DNA of 64,000 bases from Saprospiraceae bacterium. Its GTDB lineage: Bacteria; Bacteroidota; Bacteroidia; Chitinophagales; Saprospiraceae. Under the pieces are notes generated by a model. The model worked only from the letters and a program-made list of their open reading frames with translations, did not search any database and was not told where the DNA came from. The stretch is taken from assembly GCA_027488935.1 (NCBI GenBank), contig JAIYAP010000038.1, forward strand, positions 62,001-126,000. Direction: 5' to 3'. A program made the translations under genes and the position numbers. Shown here piece by piece: positions 16,025 to 54,716 of this stretch. Each line of letters begins with the position of its first letter. Positions within the stretch are counted from its first letter, which is position 1.

Positions 16025-16061
16025 AGCCCAGACTTAACGAGTATAATACGTTAAGTCTGGG
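16025..16061 (-). terminator. Intrinsic terminator of the lysyl oxidase gene
   Basis: A perfect 14-bp stem is formed by GCCCAGACTTAACG (16025-16038) and CGTTAAGTCTGGGC (16048-16061) with a 9-base loop. On the minus strand it is followed by a T-rich tract (TTTTTGTTTTTGG), 21 bases after the lysyl oxidase stop codon. Confidence 0.85.
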
Positions 16062-16081
16062 CAAACACAGGCTATTATAAC

Positions 16082-18478
16082 CTATTCTCCAAACACGATC
16101 CCGGTGCGTACGCCGTCTTTTCCACGTACCGACACCATATACATGCCAGCAGCCAAGTTGCCGCGGGCGAAGGTCACGGATTCTTCGCGAATTTGTTGGA
16201 AAGAACGTACCACCCGACCTGTCATGTCACTCAAGGTGATGCTGAGGGGCTCTGCTTCCGGATTGGCAAAAAACACCTGAAAGGACTCCTGGAAAGGATT
16301 CGGCTGAATAAACAGTTCCCTGTTGCGCAAATAAGCCGTTTTGGTGCCTACGGTAGATGTATTTACACAGTTTTGATCGCTCACCAACCCTATGCTGCGC
16401 TGGTATTTGTCGTTGACAATGGTAGTAACCGCTGAAATACAAACTTTTGGTGCAGGTACGCCACTGTAATGAATGCGTACCAAACCGCCAGGAAGGATAT
16501 TTTTCTTAATGCTGGTTTCTGTAGGGGAAAGGGCAATGATTTCACCCGCTTGATCAAAAGTGATGGCACCGTCAAAAGTAGGGGTCAAACTTTCCACCGA
16601 ATCAATGGTGATGCCACTTACATTGAACTCGTAACCGATTATTTTGCTGTAAGGGTTGACCACCTGTACATCAAAGGTTTTGGCGGCTTCGTTTAAAGTA
16701 CCCGGTAAAATATAGACCAGTTCTGCATTATTCAATAAACCGGCTGGGAACTGACAGGCAAACCGGACGCCCCAGTGGTTGGCGTCGTTCTCGTGCAGTT
16801 CACACTCTTGCAACAAAGCGGCATCGTACAAGTCAATTTGACCGTCATCATAAAGGTCGGTACAAGGGGTTACCGATGCACTATCGGCCAACGCGGCGGT
16901 CAAATAGGCATTTACATCAACATCCGTGCGCAAGGAATCTTTATTCCAGTCGCCGCGCAGGGCTGTTCCGGCACAATTTCCTTCGCAATCTAAGCGCGCA
17001 TTGCCCAACGGCATACCATAACAGTCTACTACCGGTGGACATTCTTGGTCTAGTACTTCTACGATAGGGAAAATACCGGAATAGGAAAGTTGAAAACAGG
17101 TCTGACCCCAGTTGTTCGTAAAATCTGATTCAATACGGCCTATTTTATCCGGACTCTGATCCCAGTTTACGCGCACTACCAAGGTATATACACCTGTTTG
17201 CAAATCGGTGATATCAATCCATTGGCAAGGCAAATTCGAGTCATAAATATCCCCACAACCTGCAGCAATACCCATATTATTGCACGTGTACTGGGCGTTA
17301 CCACCGTTTTCACACTCCAAATCTAACACACAAAAGCCATTTTTAGAACCGATGGGCACAATATTGCCTTTATCATCAAACAAGAGGTAATCGGCATATC
17401 CTTTATAGTGCCAGTGGTTGTGGCACGGATCCCAAACGAATTGATCGCTGGGCGTATTCGGATCGTCCGGGGAGTCTCCAATATAGTAATCAGCGTTGCC
17501 ATTATTTTTGATATGGGTGGTAAACCGCACGATATAACGACTACCCGTACCCCGCAAACAACCCTCCTGCACCATACAAGGGTCGGCGTCGGCTATAAAA
17601 TCGAGTTCTACCGAATTGCTCAACACCGCTTCCATTACGACCAAATCGGGCGTGTTTACACATGCGGGATTACCAAAGTAAATACAAGTATCCGAAATGG
17701 TTGCCAACGGATTGTAATTACAGGCACTTGGATCGGTGCAACCAATCACCGGACCAGCATATTGCATGGAAAACTGAAGCGGAGTATTGTTGCAATTATC
17801 AGCGGCGTACTTCATGCGAATGAAATATTGTTTGCCACCTGCAAGATACAAGGTTGCCGTCGCACCATTATCACAACCAGTACTGGCAAAAAAGATCGCA
17901 CCGGTTTGGTTTTCTGAAAGCGTAATGCCCTGACAACGGTCATACACCCAAATTTTGGATGGACACTGATTACCCAAATCACAAGTGCTAATCACATACG
18001 TACCGGTTTCCTGTGGCATGAAACTATACCAGGTTTCGAAAGCACCAGGGTTGGTACGTACGCCCATCGTGTCGATGGGGTAGGGGTTGTCGCAGAAAAA
18101 ACCGGGAGGGCAGCCATAACGAACGGTCTCTTCAAAATTGAAAAGCCCCTGTAGGTTTTGATAAACCAACGAATCATCGATAAACAAGCGATAGTACCCA
18201 TCTGGGGAAATACCGTCTCCAAATGCATCTTTGATTTTAAAAATGGTACACTGATTATCTGGAACACAAAACTCCAGGATTTGAAAGGTGTCTGAACTGA
18301 AGCCACCTGAAAATAATATGGTACCTGATTCGGTACCTAACTCATATTGTGTTTCATCGTAATATGGATCAGGGTCAATTTCCAAACGAACATACCGCTC
18401 ATTTGGACCGCATTGGGCTTTGGATTCGAATGAATTGCCAATCAAAAGGAGCAGTAGGCCAAGTAGATGTAATCGCAT
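16082..18478 (-). CDS. T9SS-secreted lysyl oxidase with type A sorting domain
   Basis: The protein has 798 residues. After a signal peptide (MRLHLLGLLLLLIGNSFESKAQ) come two beta-rich regions (about 24-240) and a GCTDPSACNYNPLAT calcium-type motif (246-260). A lysyl oxidase domain follows (about 278-465). It keeps the copper-binding triple His (C-HNHWH, His353/355/357), the Lys and Tyr that form the lysyl-tyrosylquinone cofactor in animal LOX (Lys379 in SKNGFC, Tyr412 in GCGDIY), and the CQWIDITD motif. Next are a dockerin-like segment (about 505-575), a cohesin-like beta domain (about 585-700) and a T9SS type A sorting domain (about 715-798, starting IQPNPF, with MTGRVV and LAAGMYMVSV). LOX oxidises peptidyl lysine to allysine, which cross-links proteins; the bacterial substrate is unknown. 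A strong terminator follows the gene. Confidence 0.88.
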   Translation of the reverse strand: MRLHLLGLLLLLIGNSFESKAQCGPNERYVRLEIDPDPYYDETQYELGTESGTILFSGGFSSDTFQILEFCVPDNQCTIFKIKDAFGDGISPDGYYRLFIDDSLVYQNLQGLFNFEETVRYGCPPGFFCDNPYPIDTMGVRTNPGAFETWYSFMPQETGTYVISTCDLGNQCPSKIWVYDRCQGITLSENQTGAIFFASTGCDNGATATLYLAGGKQYFIRMKYAADNCNNTPLQFSMQYAGPVIGCTDPSACNYNPLATISDTCIYFGNPACVNTPDLVVMEAVLSNSVELDFIADADPCMVQEGCLRGTGSRYIVRFTTHIKNNGNADYYIGDSPDDPNTPSDQFVWDPCHNHWHYKGYADYLLFDDKGNIVPIGSKNGFCVLDLECENGGNAQYTCNNMGIAAGCGDIYDSNLPCQWIDITDLQTGVYTLVVRVNWDQSPDKIGRIESDFTNNWGQTCFQLSYSGIFPIVEVLDQECPPVVDCYGMPLGNARLDCEGNCAGTALRGDWNKDSLRTDVDVNAYLTAALADSASVTPCTDLYDDGQIDLYDAALLQECELHENDANHWGVRFACQFPAGLLNNAELVYILPGTLNEAAKTFDVQVVNPYSKIIGYEFNVSGITIDSVESLTPTFDGAITFDQAGEIIALSPTETSIKKNILPGGLVRIHYSGVPAPKVCISAVTTIVNDKYQRSIGLVSDQNCVNTSTVGTKTAYLRNRELFIQPNPFQESFQVFFANPEAEPLSITLSDMTGRVVRSFQQIREESVTFARGNLAAGMYMVSVRGKDGVRTGIVFGE

Positions 18479-18730: not shown

Positions 18731-19369
18731 ATGCGCTTGTTGTTTCTGCCACTTTGGCTCTTTCTTTCTATATATTTATATGCGCAACCCAAAGATGGTT
18801 GGGCCTTAAAAAATGAAAAGGAGGGCGTAAAAGTTTATTATAAAAACTCCTCCAATATTCAGGAAATCAAACTAATCACCTCCATCAATTCGAGTATGAG
18901 CGGCATGGTGCAATTGTTTTCTGAAGTAGATTTGTACCCAAAATGGGGCTACAAAATCATTGAAGCGCGGCTATTGCACCGGGTTTCACCTACTGAAATG
19001 TATTATTATTCTAAAATAGACTTTCCATGGCCCATGAGCGACCGTGACATAATCATGCATTCCAAAATGACGCAGGATCCGGTTTCTAAAAAAATCGTAG
19101 CCATCAGTGTCGCAATGCCCGATTACTTGCCGGTAAATAAAGATGTTGTGCGTATTCGTAACGCCAACACCAATTGGACCATTTTTCCAGGCACCAACGG
19201 CTGGCTATACAGCGAATATTACATCTATTCCGATCCGGGCGGCAGCATTCCTGTATGGCTGATCAATTTGGCAATTGATGTTGGCCCGCGTGAAACCATC
19301 AAAAGTATCCGCAATATCCTGAAAGACCCAAAATATCAACGGGTTAAATTGACCTACATAAAGGAATAA
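18731..19369 (+). CDS. Secreted START-domain protein
   Basis: The protein has 212 residues with a signal peptide (MRLLFLPLWLFLSIYLYAQ). The rest is one START/SRPBCC fold: WALKNEKEGVKVYYKNS, LFSEVDLYPKWGYKIIEARLLHRVSPTEMYYY, FPWPMSDRDIIMHSKM and PVWLINLAIDVGPRETIKSIRNIL. The FPWP(M/L)SDRD stretch is typical of bacterial START proteins similar to the StAR/PCTP group. These bind lipid-like ligands in a deep cavity; the ligand here is unknown, and the location is periplasmic by the signal peptide. It is followed by a clear terminator, so it is probably monocistronic. Confidence 0.85.
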   Translation: MRLLFLPLWLFLSIYLYAQPKDGWALKNEKEGVKVYYKNSSNIQEIKLITSINSSMSGMVQLFSEVDLYPKWGYKIIEARLLHRVSPTEMYYYSKIDFPWPMSDRDIIMHSKMTQDPVSKKIVAISVAMPDYLPVNKDVVRIRNANTNWTIFPGTNGWLYSEYYIYSDPGGSIPVWLINLAIDVGPRETIKSIRNILKDPKYQRVKLTYIKE

Positions 19370-19386
19370 TTTAGATTGAAAATAGA

Positions 19387-19424
19387 AACAGCCCTTTCGC
19401 CAACAATATGCCGAAAGGGCTGTT
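19387..19424 (+). terminator. Intrinsic terminator of START gene
   Basis: AACAGCCCTTTCG (19387-19399) pairs perfectly over 13 bases with CGAAAGGGCTGTT (19412-19424), followed by TTGTG. It lies 17 bases after the START gene stop. The T tract is short. Confidence 0.75.
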
Positions 19425-19451
19425 TTGTGTCCATTACGATCGAAACGAACT

Positions 19452-31971: not shown

Positions 31972-34968
31972 ATGAAGGAATTTTTGACGCTCTTCTTTAT
32001 AGGCTGTTTTTTTAAAGTCTGGACACAGGCTCCCGTAGTTGATTGCCCCGATTTGATCAACCTCGGCCCGGATATTACCATTTGCAACAATGCTGATTTT
32101 ATGCTCAATCCCAACCCTTTGCCCAATGCACAATACGCCTGGTTGAGCAGTGGAAATTTGAGCTGCAATAATTGCCCTTCTCCGACCGTGAGTGGTCTCA
32201 CCACGGGCATCTATTTCTATATTGTAATTGTTACCACATCGGAATGTGTAGATGCAGATACGCTTCGGATTAATGTCGTGAACGGCCAACAACCACAATA
32301 TATTATTGGCCCTGATCAAGCAATTTGCAATAGTGGGACCGTTGCCTTGGGCGGAGAATCGGCCGCTGGCACTTTTTATAATTGGACTTCTGTGCCTGCA
32401 GGCCTGAACAGCACCATCGCAAATCCGGTCGTAACACCCACACAAACAACCACTTACTATTTGGAAGCGCAAAACGGCTCTTGCCCGGTTTCTGCCTTCG
32501 ACAGCATCAAAATATCCGTTTACACCCCACCTGTCCTGGTATTACCAGCCGATACTGCGATTTGTAATGGACAATCGGTGGTGCTTGGAAATACCGCTGT
32601 GCAAAGTGAGGTGATGTACACTTGGATACCCAATGGCGGTACCTTATCGGATTCAACCGCTGCCAATCCACTGGCCACTCCCAATCAAACCACCCTTTAT
32701 ACCCTGATCGCCACCAATCCAGGTTGTATCGTGACAGACGCTGTGTTAATCGCGGTGGTTAACCTCAATTTGGGTTTGTCGGTTCCAGACACCCTCCTGC
32801 TATGTAAAGGCAGTCCTGTTTCCGTACAGGCACTTTCCAATCCGGCAACCAATATTTCCTGGTCGCCTTTGATTGATATTCAGTTGACCAACAATGGCAA
32901 AGACGCCTTGCTTGATCTGCAGGAAACCCGGTTGTACACGGTTACAGCTTCTTTGCCCGGCTGTATCCGCCAGGAGCAGTTGTATGTTCGGGTGGATAGT
33001 CTGCCTGTAAATTTGACTATTTTCCCAGCGGACACCACCGTGTGTATCGGTTCTCAAGTGTTGTTACGCTCCACGAGTTATGAACCATCCGACTTTCCGA
33101 ATATTACCTTTGCCTGGAGCCCGGCGGTAGGGCAACTCACTTCCGACACCTTATATAATATGGTGTTATCGCCCATTGATACCACCGTTTATCAACGCAT
33201 TGCACAAAGCGGGGCTTGCCTGGATACTACATTTGCCTTGGTTAATGTGGTACAGCCCCCCACCTTGGTGATCAATCCACCAAATTCCTCCATTTGTCCA
33301 GGCGAATCGGTGCAACTCAACAGCATCATTCCCAATGGAGTCATAGATATTTCCTGGTCGCCGAATAACCCATCGATTTCCTGCACCGACTGTCCGAATC
33401 CAATTGTATCGCCCATTTCATCTACGACTTATCAGTTGAGCGGCACATTTGATGGTTGTCCAACAGGCGCTTCGGCACAAGTAACGGTACGTATCCCGCC
33501 AAGTATCCTGATCCCTACCGACCTCGAACTGTGTACCGGCGAATCAATATTATTAAACCAGGCCAATGATCCCAGCGCTACGTATGTTTGGACATCCAGT
33601 GATCCTAATTTTGGTACGGTAACCGTGGCACAGCCTGTAGTTGTACCGAGTTTGCCCGTTACCACCTACACCGTGGTGGCCAATAATGGTTGTATTACCA
33701 CCAAAACGTTTACGGTAAATATGCAAACGGCCAGCCTGATGACCGCTGGTGCGGATACCATCTGTCAGGGCGGATCAGCACTGATCAGCGCATCTACTTC
33801 CTTGCCGGGCAGTTTTTTATGGAGCAATGGCGAGACCCGCCAATTATTCAACGTGTCGCCCACACAAACCACGACCTACACCGTTGTATATACGTATGGA
33901 AATAATTGCACCCTGAGTGACGATGTAACGATTACGGTACAGGGGCAAAATGCCGAAACTGCTTTCCCTGCCGACCTTGAATTATGTCCGGGTGAATCCA
34001 TCGAACTAAACAGCCTGACCGTACCAGGGGCGAGTTATCAGTGGACCAGCGCTCCAGCAGGGTTGACCAGCACTGACCCGCAACCAACCGTCAGTCCAGC
34101 AGCAGGTACCACCACTTACTACTTAAAAACCAATTTGGGCATCTGTGAAAAAACGGATTCAATAAAAGTGATTGTTTATTCGGCCAACTTAACCTTGCCA
34201 GCGGACAGTATCGTTTGTGGCGGAACAGATTTGCGGCTCCTCGCAAGTGCCAACGCAACGGGTAGTTTCTTATGGACAACGGGCGATACCATGGCCGAAC
34301 TGGAACTCGACTCAATTACCAAAACGGGTACTTACGGCGTACTGTTTACGTACGGTAGCAATAATGCACTTTGCACCCTGACGGAATCTGTCACCATCAC
34401 GGTAAAGCCATCGTTTAACCTTAAAATTGTGGCCGATCCAAATAAAAACGTGTATGATTTAGGTGAAAATATCGATTTAACCGCGATTATTTCGCCTACG
34501 ATGAGCCTAAATGGCTTCAACTTTGTTTGGAAACAAAATGGTCAAAACCTCAATGGAAATGGGGATATGATTTCGGTGGTCACCGATGTTTCTGTAAATG
34601 ACACCGCTATTTTGACCTATACCGTAATGGCCACCTCCTCTAATGGTTGCAGCCGTACTGTTGAAAAGCAACTCATTTTGTTGCCGCCCATTGTACGGGT
34701 GCCAAACGTATTCACACCCAATGGCGATGGTACCAACGATGTTTTTAAATTGAAAATATTAAGCGGCATCGCGCGCATCGAAAACATGGTGGTGTACAAT
34801 CGATGGGGGCAAAAAGTGTACGAAAGCAAAGAGCAACAGGCGAGTTGGGATGGTAAAATAGAAAATATGGAAGCGCCTTCCGATGTTTATGTATACCGAA
34901 TTACCTGGCGCGATGGCAGCGGCGCATTGCGCAAACCGGAAGAAGGGCAAGTGACCCTGGTTCGATAG
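31972..34968 (+). CDS. T9SS type B secreted Ig-like repeat protein
   Basis: The protein has 998 residues. After a signal peptide (MKEFLTLFFIGCFFKVWTQ) come about ten beta-sandwich modules of roughly 80 residues. Each starts with a hydrophobic strand, then (A/L)xxC.G.(S/D)(V/I).L, and ends in a T..TTTY(Y/T)(L/V) strand, as in PADTAICNGQSVVLGN and TPNQTTLYTLIA. Paired cysteines in each module suggest disulfides. The C-terminal 90 residues are the gliding-motility-associated CHU_C/type B sorting domain: RVPNVFTPNGDGTNDVF, VVYNRWGQKVYES, SWDGKIENMEAPSDVYVYRI. Such proteins leave through T9SS and sit on the surface or in SprB-like filaments. Adhesion is a reasonable inference, not shown. Confidence 0.87.
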   Translation: MKEFLTLFFIGCFFKVWTQAPVVDCPDLINLGPDITICNNADFMLNPNPLPNAQYAWLSSGNLSCNNCPSPTVSGLTTGIYFYIVIVTTSECVDADTLRINVVNGQQPQYIIGPDQAICNSGTVALGGESAAGTFYNWTSVPAGLNSTIANPVVTPTQTTTYYLEAQNGSCPVSAFDSIKISVYTPPVLVLPADTAICNGQSVVLGNTAVQSEVMYTWIPNGGTLSDSTAANPLATPNQTTLYTLIATNPGCIVTDAVLIAVVNLNLGLSVPDTLLLCKGSPVSVQALSNPATNISWSPLIDIQLTNNGKDALLDLQETRLYTVTASLPGCIRQEQLYVRVDSLPVNLTIFPADTTVCIGSQVLLRSTSYEPSDFPNITFAWSPAVGQLTSDTLYNMVLSPIDTTVYQRIAQSGACLDTTFALVNVVQPPTLVINPPNSSICPGESVQLNSIIPNGVIDISWSPNNPSISCTDCPNPIVSPISSTTYQLSGTFDGCPTGASAQVTVRIPPSILIPTDLELCTGESILLNQANDPSATYVWTSSDPNFGTVTVAQPVVVPSLPVTTYTVVANNGCITTKTFTVNMQTASLMTAGADTICQGGSALISASTSLPGSFLWSNGETRQLFNVSPTQTTTYTVVYTYGNNCTLSDDVTITVQGQNAETAFPADLELCPGESIELNSLTVPGASYQWTSAPAGLTSTDPQPTVSPAAGTTTYYLKTNLGICEKTDSIKVIVYSANLTLPADSIVCGGTDLRLLASANATGSFLWTTGDTMAELELDSITKTGTYGVLFTYGSNNALCTLTESVTITVKPSFNLKIVADPNKNVYDLGENIDLTAIISPTMSLNGFNFVWKQNGQNLNGNGDMISVVTDVSVNDTAILTYTVMATSSNGCSRTVEKQLILLPPIVRVPNVFTPNGDGTNDVFKLKILSGIARIENMVVYNRWGQKVYESKEQQASWDGKIENMEAPSDVYVYRITWRDGSGALRKPEEGQVTLVR

Positions 34969-43308: not shown

Positions 43309-46300
43309 ATGATACAATCATCCTCTAAGTTCATTTCTTTTTTTTGTTTGTTGCTGCTGGTAAGTTGCATGCCGCACTTGTTGATGGGGCAAGACTGTAG
43401 TAGTGCCATCAAAGAAAACAAAAAAATATCCGGCATCCAGATCGCGCATTCAGCGCAACTTACGGTTGTCGTTCGAGGCAGTTACAATTACTCCATCAAC
43501 TTTTTCACCGATGAAAAAGGCATTTTTGCACGCATGACCTCGGTTGGTGGCATCGAATTCAACCAAGATGACCAGGTGGTTTTCATAGATGAAAAAGGGC
43601 AAGAACGTAGCTATAAGTTCATTGGCATGGACGAATTGGTTGCGGGTGCCGTTCCAACCCACCGCAACAACCTGCTGCTCGACTTGGATGCAGTACAATG
43701 GCTTGCAGAAGGCAATATAACGGGCATCAATTTTATCAATTTTGTTGACCGCCAGAAGTACAAGTTTACCACCAACAAGGATCGGCAGGTAGAATTCAAA
43801 AAAATCAGTAGTTGCTTTTATTCGATTCTGGAAAAAGGATCGGTTGTCGACAATCCCGGTGCAGAAGTGGTAAAACCCGTTGCTGCAACCACAACGCCTG
43901 CCGCTGGCGGTAAACCAGGTGCAACTACGCCAACCAAACCCGCAACAGGCGCTGGAAGTAAAGCGGCTATTTCTGCCGACCCCGAGGTAAGTGCCTTGCG
44001 TACAGACCTTGAAAAAACGAAAGAAAAGTTGCGTGCCGAGATAAAACTCGAAAAAGACCGTGCAGAGGCGGTAAAAGCACAGCTGGCTCAAGAAGTTGCC
44101 GCAGCCCGCGACGCTGCCAATGCCAAAAAACTGGAATACTCCAATGAAGTATTGGAAGCACGTAAAGCCAGTTTGGCGGAAATTGAAAAGTCGAAAGCCG
44201 AAGCACAGCAATATATTGTCGCAAATAAATCAAAGGCCGATTCTGCGGTGACAAAAATTTCGATGACGGTTGAAGATGCACGGCGTCAGGCGGGGGAAGA
44301 TATTCAAAAAGCCCGGGTCGTTTCTGCCGAAGAAGTTCAAAAAGCCCGTGAAAATGCCGCGAAAGAACTGCTCGTTGTCCGTGAAAAACTGGAACAATCG
44401 AAACTGCAATACGCCGATGAAATTTCAACAGCGCGCGGTAATGCCGATGACGAATTGAAACGGATTCGGGAAGAAAGCGCCAAAATTGTGGAAGATGCCC
44501 GCAATAAAGCCAAAACAGAACAAAACCGCACCCAGGATGACGTGGTGACGGCAAAAAAAACGGCTTCCGAACAAATTCTTAAAATCCGGGAAGATGCGGC
44601 GGAAGAAATTGCGCTCTCCCGTGAAAATAGCGTGCTGGAAAAACAAAAACTGGCCGTTGACTTAGCGGAATACCGCCGGAAAGCAGCCGAAGAAAAGGCA
44701 CTGCTACAACAAAATAGCGCTGCGGAAATGGCCGATATTAAGGAAAATGTCGCCAAACAGAAGGAAAACAGCGCCCTGGAGGTTGTGGAAGCCAAAAAAC
44801 GCGCCGCAGAAGAAATTGAAAAAACCCGTTTAGGCGTTGCCGAACAGCAGAAAAAAGCGGAAGGCGAAAAGGCCGAAATCGCCAAGCAAGTGGTCGATAG
44901 CAAGCAAAAAGCGGCTCAAACAGTTCAACAGGTACAAGAAGAAGCGACTAAAGCGGTGGCGGAAGCGCAATTGCGCTCCAAAAACCAACGCGATTCTATT
45001 GCCATTGAGGTAGCCGCCTCCCGCAAAAAAGCCGAAACGGAGATCACAAAAATTCAGGAAGAACTGGCCAAATCGATCGCGGCTGCCAAGGATCAGGAAA
45101 GTAATGTAAAACAACAAAGTGCCACGGAAGTACAAAAAGCCCGCGAACGCGCTGCCGTTGAAGCACAAAAAGCAGCAGATGAGGCCCGCGCGAAAGTAAT
45201 GGAAGCCAATGCAAAGGCTGACCAGGCCCAGAAACAATACGCCGATGAAATGATGACGGCCAAACAAACGGTGGATGAAAAACTGAAGCAAATTCAGGCT
45301 GAAACCGCCTCAACCATCGCCGATGCCAAGAAAAAGCAACAAGAAACCCTCACGGCTTCTGCTTCAGATGTAGTAATGGCCCGGGAAAAGGCCGCTGCCG
45401 AAATTGCGGCTGCGCGTGAAAAAGCGGCCAACGAAGTTGCAAGCGTACGAGAAAATCAGGCGCGCGCCGTACAGGAATCGGCCAATGCCGTGGCAGAAGC
45501 AAAACGCCAAAGTGCGCAAAATATCAATGCCATTAAAGCCTCCGAAGCAGATAGTATTAAAGTAGGACGCGAAAATGCAGCCAAAGAACGCCAACGCCTG
45601 GCCAGTGAAGTTGGTGCGTCGCGCGAAAAAGCCGCAACGGAAATCGCCACGACCGCCCAACAGGCTGCTCAAGAGGTGAAAACGGCACGCGAAAATGCAG
45701 CGAAAGCCCGGCAGGAAGCCGCCGAAAATGTGGCCAAAGCCCGCGATGAAGCGGCTGTTTTAATTGCAAATACCCGTGAAAATGCTGCAAAAGAGGTTGC
45801 TACGATGAAACAACAGGCCATTGAGGCCGTTGCGCTGGCAAAAAAGGAAAGCGACGATAAAAAAGCCGCGATTGCCAAAGAAACGCTCGACGCCAAGGAA
45901 AAAGCAGCCAAGGAAATCGCGGATACCCGCACCAAAGCAGCAGAAGAGATCGCAACGGCACGAAAAGATTCAGAAACAAAGCGCCAACAATACGCCAAAG
46001 AAACGGAAGAGGCCCGCAAACGTACCAATGATGAAATAGCGGCTGCACAAAAAGCTTCAACGGATGCGGTGTACAAAGCCAAACAAGAATCGGCTGCCAA
46101 CATCGCTAAAACACGCGAATCGGAAGCGGCTGGCGTGGCTGAAATCAAACAACAAGCCGCTACGGCCATCGCGGAAGCAAAAGCCGCAACTGCCGCCGAA
46201 CTTGAACGCAACAAGGCCGAAACAACACGCTTGGTAGGGGAGGATACGAAAAAAAGGGAAGAGTCGGCCGCTCAATTGGCTGCTTTGCAAACCCAAGTAA

Positions 46301-46365
46301 AAGCCGCAGAAGAGCAACTGCGCAAACTGAAGGAAGAAGCCGAAAAAGCAAAGAAAAAGGAGTAA
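43309..46365 (+). CDS. Giant secreted coiled-coil protein with 11-residue repeats
   Basis: The protein has 1018 residues. It has a signal peptide or lipoprotein signal (FFCLLLLVSC, then SPI-like LLMGQ at 28) and a globular N-terminal domain (about 30-180, LTVVVRGSYNYSINFFTDEKG, FVDRQKYKFTTNKDRQVEF, with two Cys). A Pro/Thr/Gly linker (about 181-222) leads to a continuous alpha-helical region of about 795 residues rich in Ala, Glu and Lys and almost free of Pro and Gly. The helix has an 11-residue (hendecad) period, for example AREKAAAEIAA then AREKAANEVAS, or ARENAAKARQE then AAENVAKARDE. The end is highly charged (EEQLRKLKEEAEKAKKKE). If extended, it would be roughly 120 nm long (0.15 nm per residue). 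Function is unknown; a periplasmic or surface spacer is inference. A terminator follows. Confidence 0.8.
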   Translation: MIQSSSKFISFFCLLLLVSCMPHLLMGQDCSSAIKENKKISGIQIAHSAQLTVVVRGSYNYSINFFTDEKGIFARMTSVGGIEFNQDDQVVFIDEKGQERSYKFIGMDELVAGAVPTHRNNLLLDLDAVQWLAEGNITGINFINFVDRQKYKFTTNKDRQVEFKKISSCFYSILEKGSVVDNPGAEVVKPVAATTTPAAGGKPGATTPTKPATGAGSKAAISADPEVSALRTDLEKTKEKLRAEIKLEKDRAEAVKAQLAQEVAAARDAANAKKLEYSNEVLEARKASLAEIEKSKAEAQQYIVANKSKADSAVTKISMTVEDARRQAGEDIQKARVVSAEEVQKARENAAKELLVVREKLEQSKLQYADEISTARGNADDELKRIREESAKIVEDARNKAKTEQNRTQDDVVTAKKTASEQILKIREDAAEEIALSRENSVLEKQKLAVDLAEYRRKAAEEKALLQQNSAAEMADIKENVAKQKENSALEVVEAKKRAAEEIEKTRLGVAEQQKKAEGEKAEIAKQVVDSKQKAAQTVQQVQEEATKAVAEAQLRSKNQRDSIAIEVAASRKKAETEITKIQEELAKSIAAAKDQESNVKQQSATEVQKARERAAVEAQKAADEARAKVMEANAKADQAQKQYADEMMTAKQTVDEKLKQIQAETASTIADAKKKQQETLTASASDVVMAREKAAAEIAAAREKAANEVASVRENQARAVQESANAVAEAKRQSAQNINAIKASEADSIKVGRENAAKERQRLASEVGASREKAATEIATTAQQAAQEVKTARENAAKARQEAAENVAKARDEAAVLIANTRENAAKEVATMKQQAIEAVALAKKESDDKKAAIAKETLDAKEKAAKEIADTRTKAAEEIATARKDSETKRQQYAKETEEARKRTNDEIAAAQKASTDAVYKAKQESAANIAKTRESEAAGVAEIKQQAATAIAEAKAATAAELERNKAETTRLVGEDTKKREESAAQLAALQTQVKAAEEQLRKLKEEAEKAKKKE

Positions 46366-48761: not shown

Positions 48762-51700
48762 ATGAAATTATTACATCCCGTCGCCGTGCTCCTTTTTGCG
48801 CTTTTTTCATTTCAAATTGCGCTATCACAGACTATTTTAATCACCTTCGAAAATCCAGATGCACTGTCTGTTTGTAATTCAGACACCTTTATTATTACAG
48901 TCCGCAATCTGAGTGCCCAAGTTGCCAATAATGGAAGTTTGACCATCAACTTACCGAATGGGCTGGTGTACGAACCCAGTACGGTTTCGGGCGCTACTGA
49001 AAGCAACATCAGCAATGCGCAGACGCCTGTTTTTACGTTTCCGCCCATTGCTGTTGGCGCCCTCCAAACCATTAAAGTGCTCCTGAATGCGGATTGTAAC
49101 GCAGCCAAAGTATTGGATACCGGTCAATTGTTTATTGCCAACTTGGCTGTACAAACATCGGCGGGTAATGCGCAAGCACTCACTACTTCCATACCCGTTG
49201 AAACGGGTCTTGTTTTATTCGATTCGGTGGATCCCCAATTTAGTTCTGGGGAACGTTTTGATACGATCAACCGCGAAATATGCGTGATTAACACCCGTTC
49301 AGGGCCCATTTCTAAGTTATTTTTTGAGGACAGCCATCAGGTGGGTATAGAAATCGTGGTAGCAAATGCCCAAAATGTAAGTCAAACCCCGATTTTTTAT
49401 AAAAATACCTTCTCGGGTGCTTTTTTGGCCGGATTTGGCGACGGTGATGCTTTGCTCGAACAGGGTGAAAAGGTGTGTTTTATTGAAAAAGTGATCATCA
49501 CCGATTGCGGAACACCCGAGTATAACAATCAATCGCGTTTACGGATTGGATGGGGTTGTGATGAAAGCATGTGCCGCTATGATAGTTTGTTGGCAGGCAT
49601 TGACATTAAAGAATCTACCCGCGTTCCCAACCTGAAAATGGCCGGTATTTGGAATCCTCCAGCCGATTATTGTGCCAGTTTGGGGGCTATTGCAGGTATT
49701 AAAATCAAAAATATCGGTGCCGGCAATGCCAAAGATGTACTCCTGCGCTTAAAAGTATCGGAGCAGGAATTTGTTGGGATCGAACCCACCAGCATCCGCC
49801 TGGTATCGGCAAACGGTACCGTTACGCCTTTGCCACCTAGTGTCGTTTTACCTAAAACCATTGGCGATTGTAATAAGAGTTTCGGTAAAGATATTACCCT
49901 GGTGTTGCCCTTTGTAGCGGCCAAAGATTCAACCACGTTGCTGTTCGATTATTACAACTGCAGTGCGGAATGCAATGAAATTTTGCCCACGTTCCAGCTT
50001 GAATATTTCTACCAAAAACCTTGTCCGCCTAATGGATTCGTTTCAGATGGACTTGTTATTGCACCAGATATTGCCTATAAACTGCGCCAAAAACTTCAAT
50101 TTTCGGCCAATTCCTGCCTACAAGACAATACAACTTACCCATTTCAATATAAAATTTCGTCGAAACGCCTCACGGAAGCCAACGGTGTCCTAAAAATCGT
50201 CATGGAGCTGCCCAATGGCATGGAACTATCGGGTGATTGTCCACTGCTATTGGGTGGGGTAGCACCAACGGATACTACCTTGGTACCTGCCCCCGATCGC
50301 CCCATTTCGACCCTGACCCTGACCTATCCTTTGCCCCTTAGTGCCGAGACCGACCTATTGGTTTTTTGTTTAAAATATACCTGTGATACAACTGTTTTTT
50401 GTGTAGATGATACCACTTTTCAGGACGTAGGCGGTACGGTGATTAATTATGATCCTACCGGTTTGTGCAGTAAATCTTGTGTTACCCCATTTCCTGTGCG
50501 TACCTATTGGCTTCCCAAAGCGGACGATGCCTTGAAATGTGGGGCAAATACCTGCGAAGAAATATTTTTGAGTTTATCCCAAAATAACTGTAAGCCCGAT
50601 GATGGTGACCCAAATCCGCTGGATACCCTAATAGCACAAGATACATTTCTAGGGCATTTTGTATGGAAAATGGATGCATACCGGTTGAATTACGATCTGC
50701 CGGACCTGGATAACAACCGCATCGCTGATGGGCCGGGGCAGGCCAAAGGAATCAATGTCGCCCGGCGGCGGTATTTAAGTGGCGATACCATGCGGGTTGA
50801 ATTTCGCATTTATGTAGACAGTGGGGTAGGGATGCGTTCTTTCACCCGGTCGATCATACAAGCCATTTACAAATCGGATATCGGTGTAAATGACAATGAC
50901 AGTTTCAATATACTCTTGGCAAAGTCCGTTTTTTCAAATCAAGCTAAGTTTAGGCTGTTGTCCGACTCGGTGCGGGTGCGTTATGCGGATGGAGCGGAGT
51001 ACAAGGCACTTTATAAAGGCATTAATTTCCCTTTTGATGAAAATTATGTAGTCATCAAGCAGGTAAATACCTATCCGTCGGTTATATTGGATGAAGTGAG
51101 TTATTACGCTAACCTGAGCGCTATTCGGTTGGATACCCTGTTTAACCAGGGCTTATTGCCCAAAGCGAGCATCGGTAAAGGCGATAGTTTGTTCATTTAT
51201 GCCGATTATAAACTGGATTTTAACTTTATCCCTCCTTCTGACAATAACCCCAACCCACCTTTGGTCGGCTTTAGAACATCGGGCAATAATTTAGGTTTTG
51301 GGTTTACAGCCAACAATAACCAATTTACCATACCCGGACAGTACTCTGGTTTCAAAACCAGCTGGACCAATAGTGCTTACAGCCTCAAACCTTGCCAAAA
51401 CTCCGCCCAGGTAAAACCCTTCAATTTCCGGTTGCGCATCGCGCGGGGCAATATGTTTCCATTTGAAGTGCGGCCGCTGGCTACGATACGCGATTACAAC
51501 CAATCCAAACCACTGCAGGCCAATGTGGTCAATGCCCAGTTGAAATACCTGGCGCTCCAAGACAGTATGCTGATTTTGAGCAATGCCACCTTGCCTTTTA
51601 CCCAAAATAGTGCTGCTTTTGACCTGAATTTTGATAATGCATTTTCAAATCCAATTGACGAAGGCTTTTTCTTCAGTACGGAAGTAACGTTTGGGCCAGA

Positions 51701-54700
51701 TTGCAGCTTCGGCAAGCCAGATACCTCCTTGCAACACCTAACCATCGGTTTTAAACCGGGCATGACCACGCCAGATAGCCTGGTAGAGCAAAAGTTCAAT
51801 ACCTTGGGTTACTTTTCGAACCAGCCCAGACTACAATTAAACTCCAACGATACAATTGTATACATTACTAAAAAGGACTTTGACCTTGACTTCACAATTC
51901 GCAATTCGGTTGCATCTCCGGCACCGAATATGTGGGTTAATGTGGTATCGCCTTCCGGCAACGCGAGCAGTTTTCAGTTGTTTCAATTGCCTCAATTACA
52001 ATCCATTGCAAAGCAAAACAACATTTTTCAGTTAAATAACCTAAATGGTTTTAATGCCAATAATTACCGCCTGACGGGTATTAATACCTCCTGCGTTTCG
52101 GATTCTTTGCTGATTATTTATGGCTGGAACTGCAGCCAGGTTACCAATGTCAGCCCCGAAATATGTGGTATCGACAGTTTTTGGGTGGTTTTACGCAAAG
52201 AAAGCCCGGAAATTGAGATGGATATCCGCGCTGAGCCAGCTTCTATTCAAATTTGCGAGGAGTCTGATTATTACGAAGTCGAATTATACAACGCCAAAAC
52301 AGGGTATGCCTATGACCTTGATTTGTCGGTCAATTTACCCCCCGGTTTGGACATCGTACCCGGTTCGTGCCAAATTTCCTATCCAGCGGGCAGTCCATAT
52401 GTGCCATTAGCAAATCCCGTAAATAGCAATGGTTTGTTTCAATGGGATATCAACAGTGTGCAGGCGGCCATTGCACTCAATGGGTTGCCAGGGATCGATC
52501 AAGCCCCGAAAAATGCCCTCAAGATTCGTTTTAAAACCCTGGCAAACTGTGGTTTTGTAGCCAACGCGCAACCAATTTTTGGCGCAACCGGCTTCGATCC
52601 TTGCGGCAGCGCCACCAATACCCTGAATAAACCCGCTAGTTCACTGACCGTTAATGGGTTAAATCCAAGTTACGGTGTCATCATGGAACTGAATCCTACT
52701 GGAACACCCATGCTTTATTGTGGTGGCACACAACAATATAAAGTACGGACTACCTTACTCGGTAAACCTTCTGGCACCGATAGTATATATGTATTACTGC
52801 CAGCATCTTTACAATACGTGAGCGGTTCCTATACACCCGGTCAAAATGCTCCGATTGGTACGCCATCCACCACTCAGGAAGGGTTTCGCGTGGTAATTCC
52901 ATCCAATTTGGACAATGGCAGCGTCATCGAATTTACTTTTTCTGTACAAATCCAAACGGGTGCCGGGTGCGGCAACGACCTGATCATCGCACAATCCAGG
53001 GTCAGCACCGCAGCATTTTGTGCAACGCTGGGTACCAATTGTACCGTATATTTCGCTACAGGAACAGCCATTTTGCCCTTTCAAATTGCGCATCCTCAAT
53101 TGGACATCACAGATGCCAATATTCAAAACATCAACAACACCCTTCAGGTCAAGGTAAACGTACGCAACATCGGCACCGTGCCCGCACAAGGCGTACAAAT
53201 ACAACTCTGGTACGATCAAAATGGCGATGGACTGGTTTCAGCAAATGATCTCCTAATTACCACAGGATCTGTGAATAATACATTAAATCCAAGTGGCAAT
53301 ATTACCATAAATTTGCCTGCCTTGAGCACCTTGCCTGATTTGTGCAATTTGATCGTGGTTTTGCCTGCAGATGAAAACTGTACGTGTTCGGATCAATTAT
53401 TTCCTTTGAAAAACCTCCAGGTTGTGGCACCCAACGAGGACATTTGCAGCATTAAAGCGGTGCAAGTTGGAATTCCGGCCCAAAATGGCTTTCAATACCA
53501 ATGGTCGGTACCCAACGGTTCCGTGCAATGCGCTACCTGTGCTTCTACTGAATTTACACCACCCGCAGGGGCGCAGGCGGGATATTCTGAAACGATTAGC
53601 CTGCTAGCCACTGGCCCCAATTGCAGCGTCGAATACCAATTTACCTACACTTTTGGCTTTCCATTTACCCTCAAGCCCAACAATCAAACCTTGTGCGAAG
53701 GCAAACAACTGGTGCTTTCCGTTACACCCACCGGCGCTACCTATACCTGGGCCGGACCGGGGGTGACCAACAACAACGCTGCAACCCAGGTATTGTATCC
53801 GATCCAAACCGGCACTTATTCCGTTACCGTTACCCGGAGCAATGGTTGTACCGCCGATACCAGCATGCTCATCACCGTGCTGCCGTCCGATACCATCCAG
53901 TTACCTGCCTTGATCACTTGCCAGGGTGAACCGATTAATATTTTAGGTCAAAATACGTCTACTGCAGGGACGTACAATTTGTTGTTACAAAAGCAGAACG
54001 GTTGCGATAGTTTGATTCGCCAACAATTGATCGTGAAACCAAGTACACAGACGCAATCTACCCAACAATTCTGCAAAGGCGATACCTTGAAAGTATACAA
54101 TCAGGTTTTTGTGCAAAATGGCGGCCAAGCCTGCACCACCAACATGGGCATAAATGGTTGCGATAGCACGCATTGTGTCAATGTAGTGGCGCTTGATCCC
54201 CCGCTGATCCAGTCCCCCGACACCATTTATGGGCAAATTTTGCAAAATATCACGCTCACGGGGGCCGGTGGATTCAATCAATATGCCTGGACGCCTGCTT
54301 TGCCCGATTGTGCAAATTGCCCGGGTGGAACCGTGCGTTTCGATACCGCCGGTTATTATGAATACATCCTGGTGATATCTGACGATCAAGGTTGTGGCGA
54401 TACCGTGGTGTATCGCATTGTGGTATTTCCGCCCTGTGATGCGAAAAACGTGCGCATTCCAAACGCATTTACACCAAACGGAGATGGCACAAATGACACT
54501 TTTAAGGTCGTAGATCGGGAAGGTGCCGAAGTCGTAGGAGGAATCCAAATTTATGACCGCTGGGGTGAAAAAGTGTACGAAAGCACTACACAGTTATATT
54601 GGGACGGCACCATTGATGGGAAACCAGCGCCAAATGATGTATATGTTTACATTATTCAAATAATTTGTGGCGATTCACCTGAAAAATTAGTTGGGGATGT

Positions 54701-54716
54701 TACTTTGTTAAGATAG
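48762..54716 (+). CDS. 1984-residue T9SS type B secreted protein
   Basis: A signal peptide (LLHPVAVLLFALFSFQIALSQ) is followed by about 1890 residues of beta-sandwich modules. The first part has DUF11-like repeats about asymmetric conserved strands (NLSAQVANNGSLTINLPNGLVYEPS, KNIGAGNAKDVLLRLKVSE). Further DUF11-like modules occur near 1160-1600 (VSLNLPPGLDIVPGSCQISY-like and VNVRNIGTVPAQGVQIQLWYD). Ig/PKD-like modules come near 1600-1880 (LCEGKQLVLSVTPTGATYTW). The last 90 residues are a type B sorting domain (RIPNAFTPNGDGTNDTF, IYDRWGEKVYES, WDGTIDGKPAPNDVYVYII). Cysteines are frequent. It is probably a surface filament or adhesin delivered by T9SS; the ligand is unknown. Confidence 0.87.
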   Translation: MKLLHPVAVLLFALFSFQIALSQTILITFENPDALSVCNSDTFIITVRNLSAQVANNGSLTINLPNGLVYEPSTVSGATESNISNAQTPVFTFPPIAVGALQTIKVLLNADCNAAKVLDTGQLFIANLAVQTSAGNAQALTTSIPVETGLVLFDSVDPQFSSGERFDTINREICVINTRSGPISKLFFEDSHQVGIEIVVANAQNVSQTPIFYKNTFSGAFLAGFGDGDALLEQGEKVCFIEKVIITDCGTPEYNNQSRLRIGWGCDESMCRYDSLLAGIDIKESTRVPNLKMAGIWNPPADYCASLGAIAGIKIKNIGAGNAKDVLLRLKVSEQEFVGIEPTSIRLVSANGTVTPLPPSVVLPKTIGDCNKSFGKDITLVLPFVAAKDSTTLLFDYYNCSAECNEILPTFQLEYFYQKPCPPNGFVSDGLVIAPDIAYKLRQKLQFSANSCLQDNTTYPFQYKISSKRLTEANGVLKIVMELPNGMELSGDCPLLLGGVAPTDTTLVPAPDRPISTLTLTYPLPLSAETDLLVFCLKYTCDTTVFCVDDTTFQDVGGTVINYDPTGLCSKSCVTPFPVRTYWLPKADDALKCGANTCEEIFLSLSQNNCKPDDGDPNPLDTLIAQDTFLGHFVWKMDAYRLNYDLPDLDNNRIADGPGQAKGINVARRRYLSGDTMRVEFRIYVDSGVGMRSFTRSIIQAIYKSDIGVNDNDSFNILLAKSVFSNQAKFRLLSDSVRVRYADGAEYKALYKGINFPFDENYVVIKQVNTYPSVILDEVSYYANLSAIRLDTLFNQGLLPKASIGKGDSLFIYADYKLDFNFIPPSDNNPNPPLVGFRTSGNNLGFGFTANNNQFTIPGQYSGFKTSWTNSAYSLKPCQNSAQVKPFNFRLRIARGNMFPFEVRPLATIRDYNQSKPLQANVVNAQLKYLALQDSMLILSNATLPFTQNSAAFDLNFDNAFSNPIDEGFFFSTEVTFGPDCSFGKPDTSLQHLTIGFKPGMTTPDSLVEQKFNTLGYFSNQPRLQLNSNDTIVYITKKDFDLDFTIRNSVASPAPNMWVNVVSPSGNASSFQLFQLPQLQSIAKQNNIFQLNNLNGFNANNYRLTGINTSCVSDSLLIIYGWNCSQVTNVSPEICGIDSFWVVLRKESPEIEMDIRAEPASIQICEESDYYEVELYNAKTGYAYDLDLSVNLPPGLDIVPGSCQISYPAGSPYVPLANPVNSNGLFQWDINSVQAAIALNGLPGIDQAPKNALKIRFKTLANCGFVANAQPIFGATGFDPCGSATNTLNKPASSLTVNGLNPSYGVIMELNPTGTPMLYCGGTQQYKVRTTLLGKPSGTDSIYVLLPASLQYVSGSYTPGQNAPIGTPSTTQEGFRVVIPSNLDNGSVIEFTFSVQIQTGAGCGNDLIIAQSRVSTAAFCATLGTNCTVYFATGTAILPFQIAHPQLDITDANIQNINNTLQVKVNVRNIGTVPAQGVQIQLWYDQNGDGLVSANDLLITTGSVNNTLNPSGNITINLPALSTLPDLCNLIVVLPADENCTCSDQLFPLKNLQVVAPNEDICSIKAVQVGIPAQNGFQYQWSVPNGSVQCATCASTEFTPPAGAQAGYSETISLLATGPNCSVEYQFTYTFGFPFTLKPNNQTLCEGKQLVLSVTPTGATYTWAGPGVTNNNAATQVLYPIQTGTYSVTVTRSNGCTADTSMLITVLPSDTIQLPALITCQGEPINILGQNTSTAGTYNLLLQKQNGCDSLIRQQLIVKPSTQTQSTQQFCKGDTLKVYNQVFVQNGGQACTTNMGINGCDSTHCVNVVALDPPLIQSPDTIYGQILQNITLTGAGGFNQYAWTPALPDCANCPGGTVRFDTAGYYEYILVISDDQGCGDTVVYRIVVFPPCDAKNVRIPNAFTPNGDGTNDTFKVVDREGAEVVGGIQIYDRWGEKVYESTTQLYWDGTIDGKPAPNDVYVYIIQIICGDSPEKLVGDVTLLR

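Follow-up and report, generated by a model that had tools for sequence, protein, structure and literature searches.

In enzymes of the lysyl oxidase (LOX) family, copper and O2 convert a tyrosine and a lysine of the protein into lysine tyrosylquinone (LTQ), a cofactor that oxidises primary amines to aldehydes and yields H2O2; the animal LOX enzyme cross-links collagen and elastin. Here we analysed a LOX-family gene lying on a 64,000-nucleotide stretch of a Saprospiraceae genome (hereafter the window; assembly GCA_027488935.1, contig JAIYAP010000038.1, positions 62,001 to 126,000). The gene is a single open reading frame (ORF) with an ATG start on the minus strand, at window positions 16082-18478, and its 798-residue product is described by its ORF, Pfam and NCBIfam matches as a cargo of the type IX secretion system (T9SS) that carries a LOX domain. 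The closest described systems include LOX proteins of Bacteroidetes, already published by Grau-Bove et al. 2015, who name the residues K320 and Y355 of LOX (PMC4448552); the archaeal HTU-LOX, active in vitro both on polypeptides that contain lysine and on numerous small amines (PMC6452851); and human LOXL2, whose copper histidines are numbered 626, 628 and 630 and whose LTQ precursors are Lys653 and Tyr689 (PMC9180022). Judged by its sequence, the window protein is a LOX family member with complete active-site residues, and we put the probability that it is an LTQ-dependent copper amine oxidase of this family, exported by Sec and then by the T9SS, at about 80%.

The match to the LOX family is, in sequence comparisons, far beyond chance. 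Pfam PF01186 (Lysyl_oxidase) was matched at residues 311-467 with E 1.2e-31 and 110.4 bits, the cut-off being 20.4. A phmmer search of the PDB returned human LOXL2 (5ze3) as the sole convincing match at E 5.5e-21, the next five being the allergen Can f 1, matched in the tail region at E 0.028 or worse; a 20-row profile retrieved 5ze3 at E 5.8e-34. The catalytic domain was placed at residues 268-469 (17072-17677; this and all other features of the gene lie on the minus strand) from the Pfam interval and a PDB alignment over residues 268-456. Its motifs pair with those of LOXL2 as CHNHWH/CHRHYH, GSKNGFC/GHKASFC and GCGDIYDSNLPCQWIDITD/GCWDMYRHDIDCQWVDITD, so that His353, His355 and His357 (17408-17422) fall on the LOXL2 copper histidines, and Lys379 (17342-17344) and Tyr412 (17243-17245) fall on the two LTQ precursors. 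The initial annotation, made from the letters of the sequence, had proposed that a protein exported by the T9SS carries a complete LOX active site; its five residue numbers proved correct, its assignment of Lys379 and Tyr412 to the LTQ pair holds in the alignment with human LOXL2, and its overall description agrees with the Pfam, LOXL2 and sorting-domain matches.

The predicted fold points in the same direction. A model of the whole protein (mean predicted local distance difference test score, pLDDT, 85.9; predicted template modelling score, pTM, 0.64) had two chains of 5ze3 as its top Foldseek matches in the PDB, with E 1.0e-13 and 5.3e-13, root-mean-square deviations (rmsd) of 4.4 and 4.7 and 29% identity in the fold alignment. 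The template modelling (TM) scores, 0.21 by query and 0.36-0.37 by target, are low because the query has 798 residues and the alignment covers ~219 columns. Apart from 5ze3 and a sorting domain described below, the whole model gave mostly long, poor superpositions on beta-rich proteins. As the LTQ precursors lie 16.6 Å apart in 5ze3 (PMC9180022), the distance between lysine and tyrosine alone would not refute an LTQ site.

Conservation was followed among the best 80 LOX loci of at least 563 relatives in a genome-contig scan and in larger domain sets, where removal of identical domain sequences took 205 rows to 167 and the larger set held 227 rows including the window and LOXL2. The window protein and its relatives form what we call group A. 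The three histidines, Lys379 and Tyr412 were kept in every one of the 152 rows in the largest alignment of group A, made up of the window protein, its gene again as locus L001, LOXL2, one Gemmatirosa sequence and 148 others; the 151 non-human rows fall into 137 clusters at 97%, near-duplicates thus remaining. The same residues were invariant in all 31 rows of an alignment of the window protein with 30 relatives and in overlapping alignments of 40, 36 and 54 rows. In the 31 rows the mean majority-residue frequency was 0.72 in the LOX domain against 0.35-0.61 in the other large regions (0.48 and 0.55 in the two halves of the N-terminal region), and was exceeded only by a 26-residue stretch around GCTDP, at 0.76. 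The motif GCTDPxACNYNPxA at residues 246-265 (17684-17743) has G246, C247, C253, P257, A259 and C265 invariant in 54/54 rows. The multidomain surface architecture is conserved over this 54-row full-length alignment, and many relatives keep the layout of ~800 residues with the LOX domain near residues 275-465, the longest reaching 2127. Upstream of the motif lie a putative signal peptide (residues 1-21, 18416-18478; cleavage near AQ|C by eye, a model helix at residues 2-16) and a beta-rich region to which no function was assigned (residues 22-242, 17753-18415; model strands between 27 and 242).

A second, divergent family of T9SS LOX-like proteins, group B, occurs in the same order (L030, L033-L042, L168-L206) and is multicopy in some genomes. 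PF01186 was found in 39/39 and the Por_Secre tail in 33/39 of the group B proteins scanned, which represent 39 of 57 rows after omission of 12 locus-end ORFs, two Streptomyces rows, L045 and three short fragments. Their partner domains are Ig_7, CARDB, PKD or P-domain, their cysteine set differs, and the group A profile matches them weakly or not at all. A pattern search found the catalytic motif in 65 of 75 group B rows (two of the 75 being Streptomyces). On inspection by eye, the other ten comprised four fragments that are short or cut (L270, L182, one from L040 and one from L044), two rows with HxHxH present that the search had missed (L180, L186), and four domains that have lost it (L201, two in L272, L273). 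Catalytically dead members therefore probably exist in the wider LOX-like family, and the invariance of group A is not trivial, since these losses show that the site can be lost and that this was avoided in the group A proteins sampled.

The C-terminus (residues 722-798, 16085-16315) carries a T9SS type A sorting domain, matched by PF18962 (Por_Secre_tail) at residues 726-788 with E 4.8e-10 and by TIGR04183 at 725-792 with E 1.3e-10; in the model it superposes on the sorting domain of mirolase (8qb1; rmsd 2.1, target TM score 0.76). The genome encodes the translocon protein SprA (TIGR04189, 2309.8 bits), the one T9SS part searched for, and of 441 T9SS-tail candidates in it, 150 were scored and all 150 matched. 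PF18962 was present at E <= 0.01 in 39/40 and 32/36 proteins of two Pfam scans, that is in 70 of 75 distinct proteins with the window protein counted once. These scans covered 74 of the 80 loci; the truncated ORFs L065, L101, L107, L115, L116 and L124 were omitted, and L106, truncated at its 3' end, stayed in the 36-protein scan. The coupling of LOX with the T9SS had at first been called unusual, but the tail is common among the Bacteroidota relatives. Our literature searches of open-licence papers found none that links LOX with the T9SS, and the multidomain T9SS form is undescribed in the literature searched.

Between the LOX domain and the sorting domain lie two segments that had initially been described as surrounding the LOX domain; both exist, but in the model both are C-terminal of it. 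The first, dockerin-like (residues 509-563, 16790-16954), has two D-rich loops, with a helix after each (residues 519-531 and 550-562 in the model), and its D510, D521, D541 and D552 were invariant in 54 rows. The dockerin family PF00404 was matched at E <= 0.01 in 11/75 proteins, the window protein not among them. The second is a cohesin-like beta domain recognised with Foldseek (residues 575-706, 16361-16756). Residues 484-712 modelled alone reached pLDDT 90.9 and pTM 0.86, and 10 of their 16 Foldseek matches at E <= 0.001 were cohesins (2ccl, 1ohz, 2jh2, 2xdh and others), the remaining six being cellulose-binding or adhesin domains. The cohesin matches were moderate (E 1.1e-5 to 3.8e-4, target TM scores 0.42-0.59); Pfam cohesin PF00963 had no match in the window protein, and no second copy of the gene's dockerin-cohesin module was found in the genome at E <= 0.001. 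Elsewhere the genome has 13 Dockerin and nine Cohesin matches (six of the nine exceed the cut-off), several in a single ORF, and docking partners for the LOX protein are therefore conceivable. Contigs C3 and C82 carry very long ORFs that match cohesin and dockerin, for example frames of 3162 and 1573 residues on C3, whose domain content hints at a cohesin-dockerin surface assembly.

Next, we studied the cysteines of the LOX domain. Their pairing matters because bovine LOX and LOXL2 have been assigned different disulfides: crystal and mass spectrometry data give 573-625, 579-695, 657-673, 663-685 and 732-746 for the LOXL2 catalytic domain, while a LOX model built on the pairs of native bovine LOX corresponds, in LOXL2 numbering, to 573-579, 625-673, 657-663, 685-695 and 732-746; some bovine-type pairs were seen at low abundance in the LOXL2 study and judged side products (PMC9180022). 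The first four LOXL2 pairs align with cysteines 301-352, 307-418, 383-399 and 389-408 of the window protein. The full set of eight occurs in 147 of the 152 group A rows, those of the window protein and LOXL2 included. Of the five exceptions, L207 is without 383 and 399; L208 and L209, of the same GTDB family and likely the product of one event, are without 307, 418, 383 and 399; Gemmatirosa L137 is without 307, 418, 389 and 408; and L261 is without 389 alone, which leaves one orphan cysteine under every pairing. Over the five rows the LOXL2 pairing leaves 1 orphan and the bovine LOX pairing 13; among all 105 possible pairings the LOXL2 one is the best, with 3 orphans for the runner-up. A smaller earlier set of four rows gave 0 orphans against 12. 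The sequence pattern of missing cysteines thus supports the LOXL2 pairing but does not prove it, because the independent events are few (three or four).

The number of disulfides is variable among LOX proteins (PMC6452851). In the Streptomyces rows and most of group B, 383 and 399 are retained while 352, 389, 408 and 418 are missing, a set compatible with the LOXL2 pairing but with neither 352-399 nor 383-389; the N-terminal cysteine columns of group B looked misaligned and were left unused. In a tree of 32 rows, eight of them from group B, LOXL2 joined group A with support of 95/93, to the exclusion of Streptomyces, Gemmatirosa and group B. This agrees with the shared cysteines, and as the tree holds one animal sequence, no fungi or deltaproteobacteria, and long branches flagged by the program, its sampling is too thin for more and we did not rest conclusions on it. 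The loss of cysteines in pairs bears on which disulfide pairing supports LTQ formation in the animal enzymes, and the pattern is a small, testable addition to that open question.

By analogy with the family, the protein would be exported through the Sec pathway and then the T9SS, and held at the cell surface or released. Copper bound at His353, His355 and His357 would drive LTQ formation, in which Tyr412 is oxidised and becomes cross-linked to Lys379, and the mature enzyme would oxidise primary amines, namely lysine side chains and perhaps small amines, to aldehydes, releasing ammonia and H2O2. The dockerin-like and cohesin-like segments may serve to place it at the surface. Amine oxidase activity is likely. 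As a working choice, and a guess about level with general amine oxidation, we take its targets to be lysines in extracellular proteins, whether those of its own cell or neighbouring ones. Several observations weigh against this reading. LOX has a patchy distribution, being found in 25/37 genomes of the genus (own genome included), and none of the neighbouring genes is conserved widely over the 80 loci, which together indicate a role that is not core; no activity of HTU-LOX was detectable in the organism it comes from (PMC6452851); and no substrate of the LOX protein was found in our analysis.

Two explanations of function are about equally likely, neither reaching even odds. One is that the protein acts as an extracellular general amine oxidase, for nitrogen supply, for detoxification of amine antibiotics or for the production of H2O2 against neighbours, and cross-links nothing. 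HTU-LOX, with its relaxed specificity, oxidises taurine, glycine, aminoglycosides and polymyxin (PMC6452851), and the want of a widely conserved neighbour gene also suits this explanation; however, HTU-LOX is a distant relative outside our alignments, and the conserved multidomain surface architecture would seem to exceed what a scavenging enzyme needs. The other, put forward in the initial annotation, is that it cross-links surface or matrix proteins of its own cell, as animal LOX does in the extracellular matrix. The animal-like active site and disulfide frame, the export to the surface, the many T9SS cargo proteins available as possible substrates, and the further cohesin and dockerin matches in the genome argue for it; the same want of a conserved neighbour argues against it, and so do the data on collagen. 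The genome encodes a collagen-repeat protein (a 1096-residue ORF, L134:1760-5050, contig C77), which we rejected as a collagen-like substrate: its 225-residue GXY stretch has 0 lysines, with 27 elsewhere in the protein. Among the 37 genus genomes (G453-G457, which had no LOX test, were excluded), collagen matches occurred in 13 of 25 with LOX and in 3 of 12 without, a trend in the expected direction that is not significant (Fisher p 0.17). Protein cross-linking is possible but unsupported.

It is less probable that the enzyme acts on proteins of other organisms, such as algae, animals or sludge neighbours, for adhesion or predation: the export tail and the animal-like domain are all that favours this ecological guess, and nothing specific speaks against it. 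That the domain is a catalytically dead relic kept for structure is most improbable: the loss of the His triad in the four group B domains named above speaks for it, but none of 150 group A rows has lost any of the five residues. We also consider doubtful the combined proposal that the T9SS LOX of Bacteroidota alone among the bacterial types compared shares the animal four-disulfide frame, which may predate animals, that the LOXL2 pairing rather than the bovine assignment is ancestral, and that the enzyme cross-links bacterial surface proteins through allysine. A recurrent surface-exported bacterial LOX that combines the active site and the disulfide frame of the animal enzyme offers a simple system for testing protein-bound aldehyde cross-links in bacteria.

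PF01186 occurs once in the window genome, and in 33/60 genomes of relatives, 81/298 of the order, 97/395 of the class and 4/395 of the phylum sample; each sample includes the own genome, and at most 10 candidates per genome were scored for the order and at most 7 for the class and the phylum. None was found in 14 control genomes. A scan for viral LOX copies gave 22 pattern matches, none of them confirmed, and the plasmid search gave only distant copies, from Streptomyces and Gemmatirosa, HTU-LOX not being among its matches. Among the 80 relatives kept, the closest named records are uncultured Bacteroidetes and Saprospiraceae metagenome bins; in one of them, L046, the LOX domain is 89% identical and the neighbouring genes match the window at 95-97%. 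Another relative, L118, comes from the named isolate Phaeodactylibacter luteus.

Neighbouring genes were clustered as ATG-start ORFs of at least 100 residues within 4 kb of LOX in the 80 loci; the sequence available exceeded 1 kb on the upstream side in 71 of these loci and on the downstream side in 73. The largest cluster, with 11/80 loci against 7 for the next, is a START-domain gene, in the window the divergent neighbour of LOX (18731-19369, plus strand). On the other side a perfect 14-bp inverted repeat (16026-16062) lies between LOX and a convergent rsmD-like gene and is a possible shared terminator. Another inverted repeat between genes, at 19386-19425 (17 nt, 94%), may also be a terminator. 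Elsewhere in the window, two ORFs encode large proteins with CHU_C T9SS signals, at 48762-54716 (1984 residues, with no further Pfam match at E 0.001) and 31972-34968 (998 residues), and a 1018-residue ORF at 43309-46365 has no Pfam match at E 0.001.

Finally, we compared the window protein with known systems. With LOXL2 (5ze3) and animal LOX it shares the domain match, HxHxH, the LTQ lysine and tyrosine, the eight cysteines of four disulfides and CQWxDITD; unlike LOXL2, it has no SRCR match in the Pfam scan and carries instead a T9SS tail, the GCTDP motif and the dockerin-like and cohesin-like segments. The Streptomyces LOX-family proteins (L138, L139) have the equivalents of HxHxH, Lys, Tyr and Asp410 but in the alignment are without six of the eight LOXL2-type cysteines, at ~28-31% identity over half the domain. 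Group B shares PF01186, the T9SS tail and, in most rows, the catalytic motif, and differs in partner domains and cysteines. HTU-LOX of Haloterrigena turkmenica belongs to the same family and is an active recombinant prokaryotic LOX, but is archaeal (PMC6452851). The prokaryotic LOX proteins of Grau-Bove et al. are of the same family and phylum, and their catalytic competence is predicted from the same residues (PMC4448552). The window gene is a conserved variant of this known family, its active site is the one expected for the family, and beside the proteins already published it presents a recurrent multidomain architecture of ~800 residues that ends in a T9SS tail.

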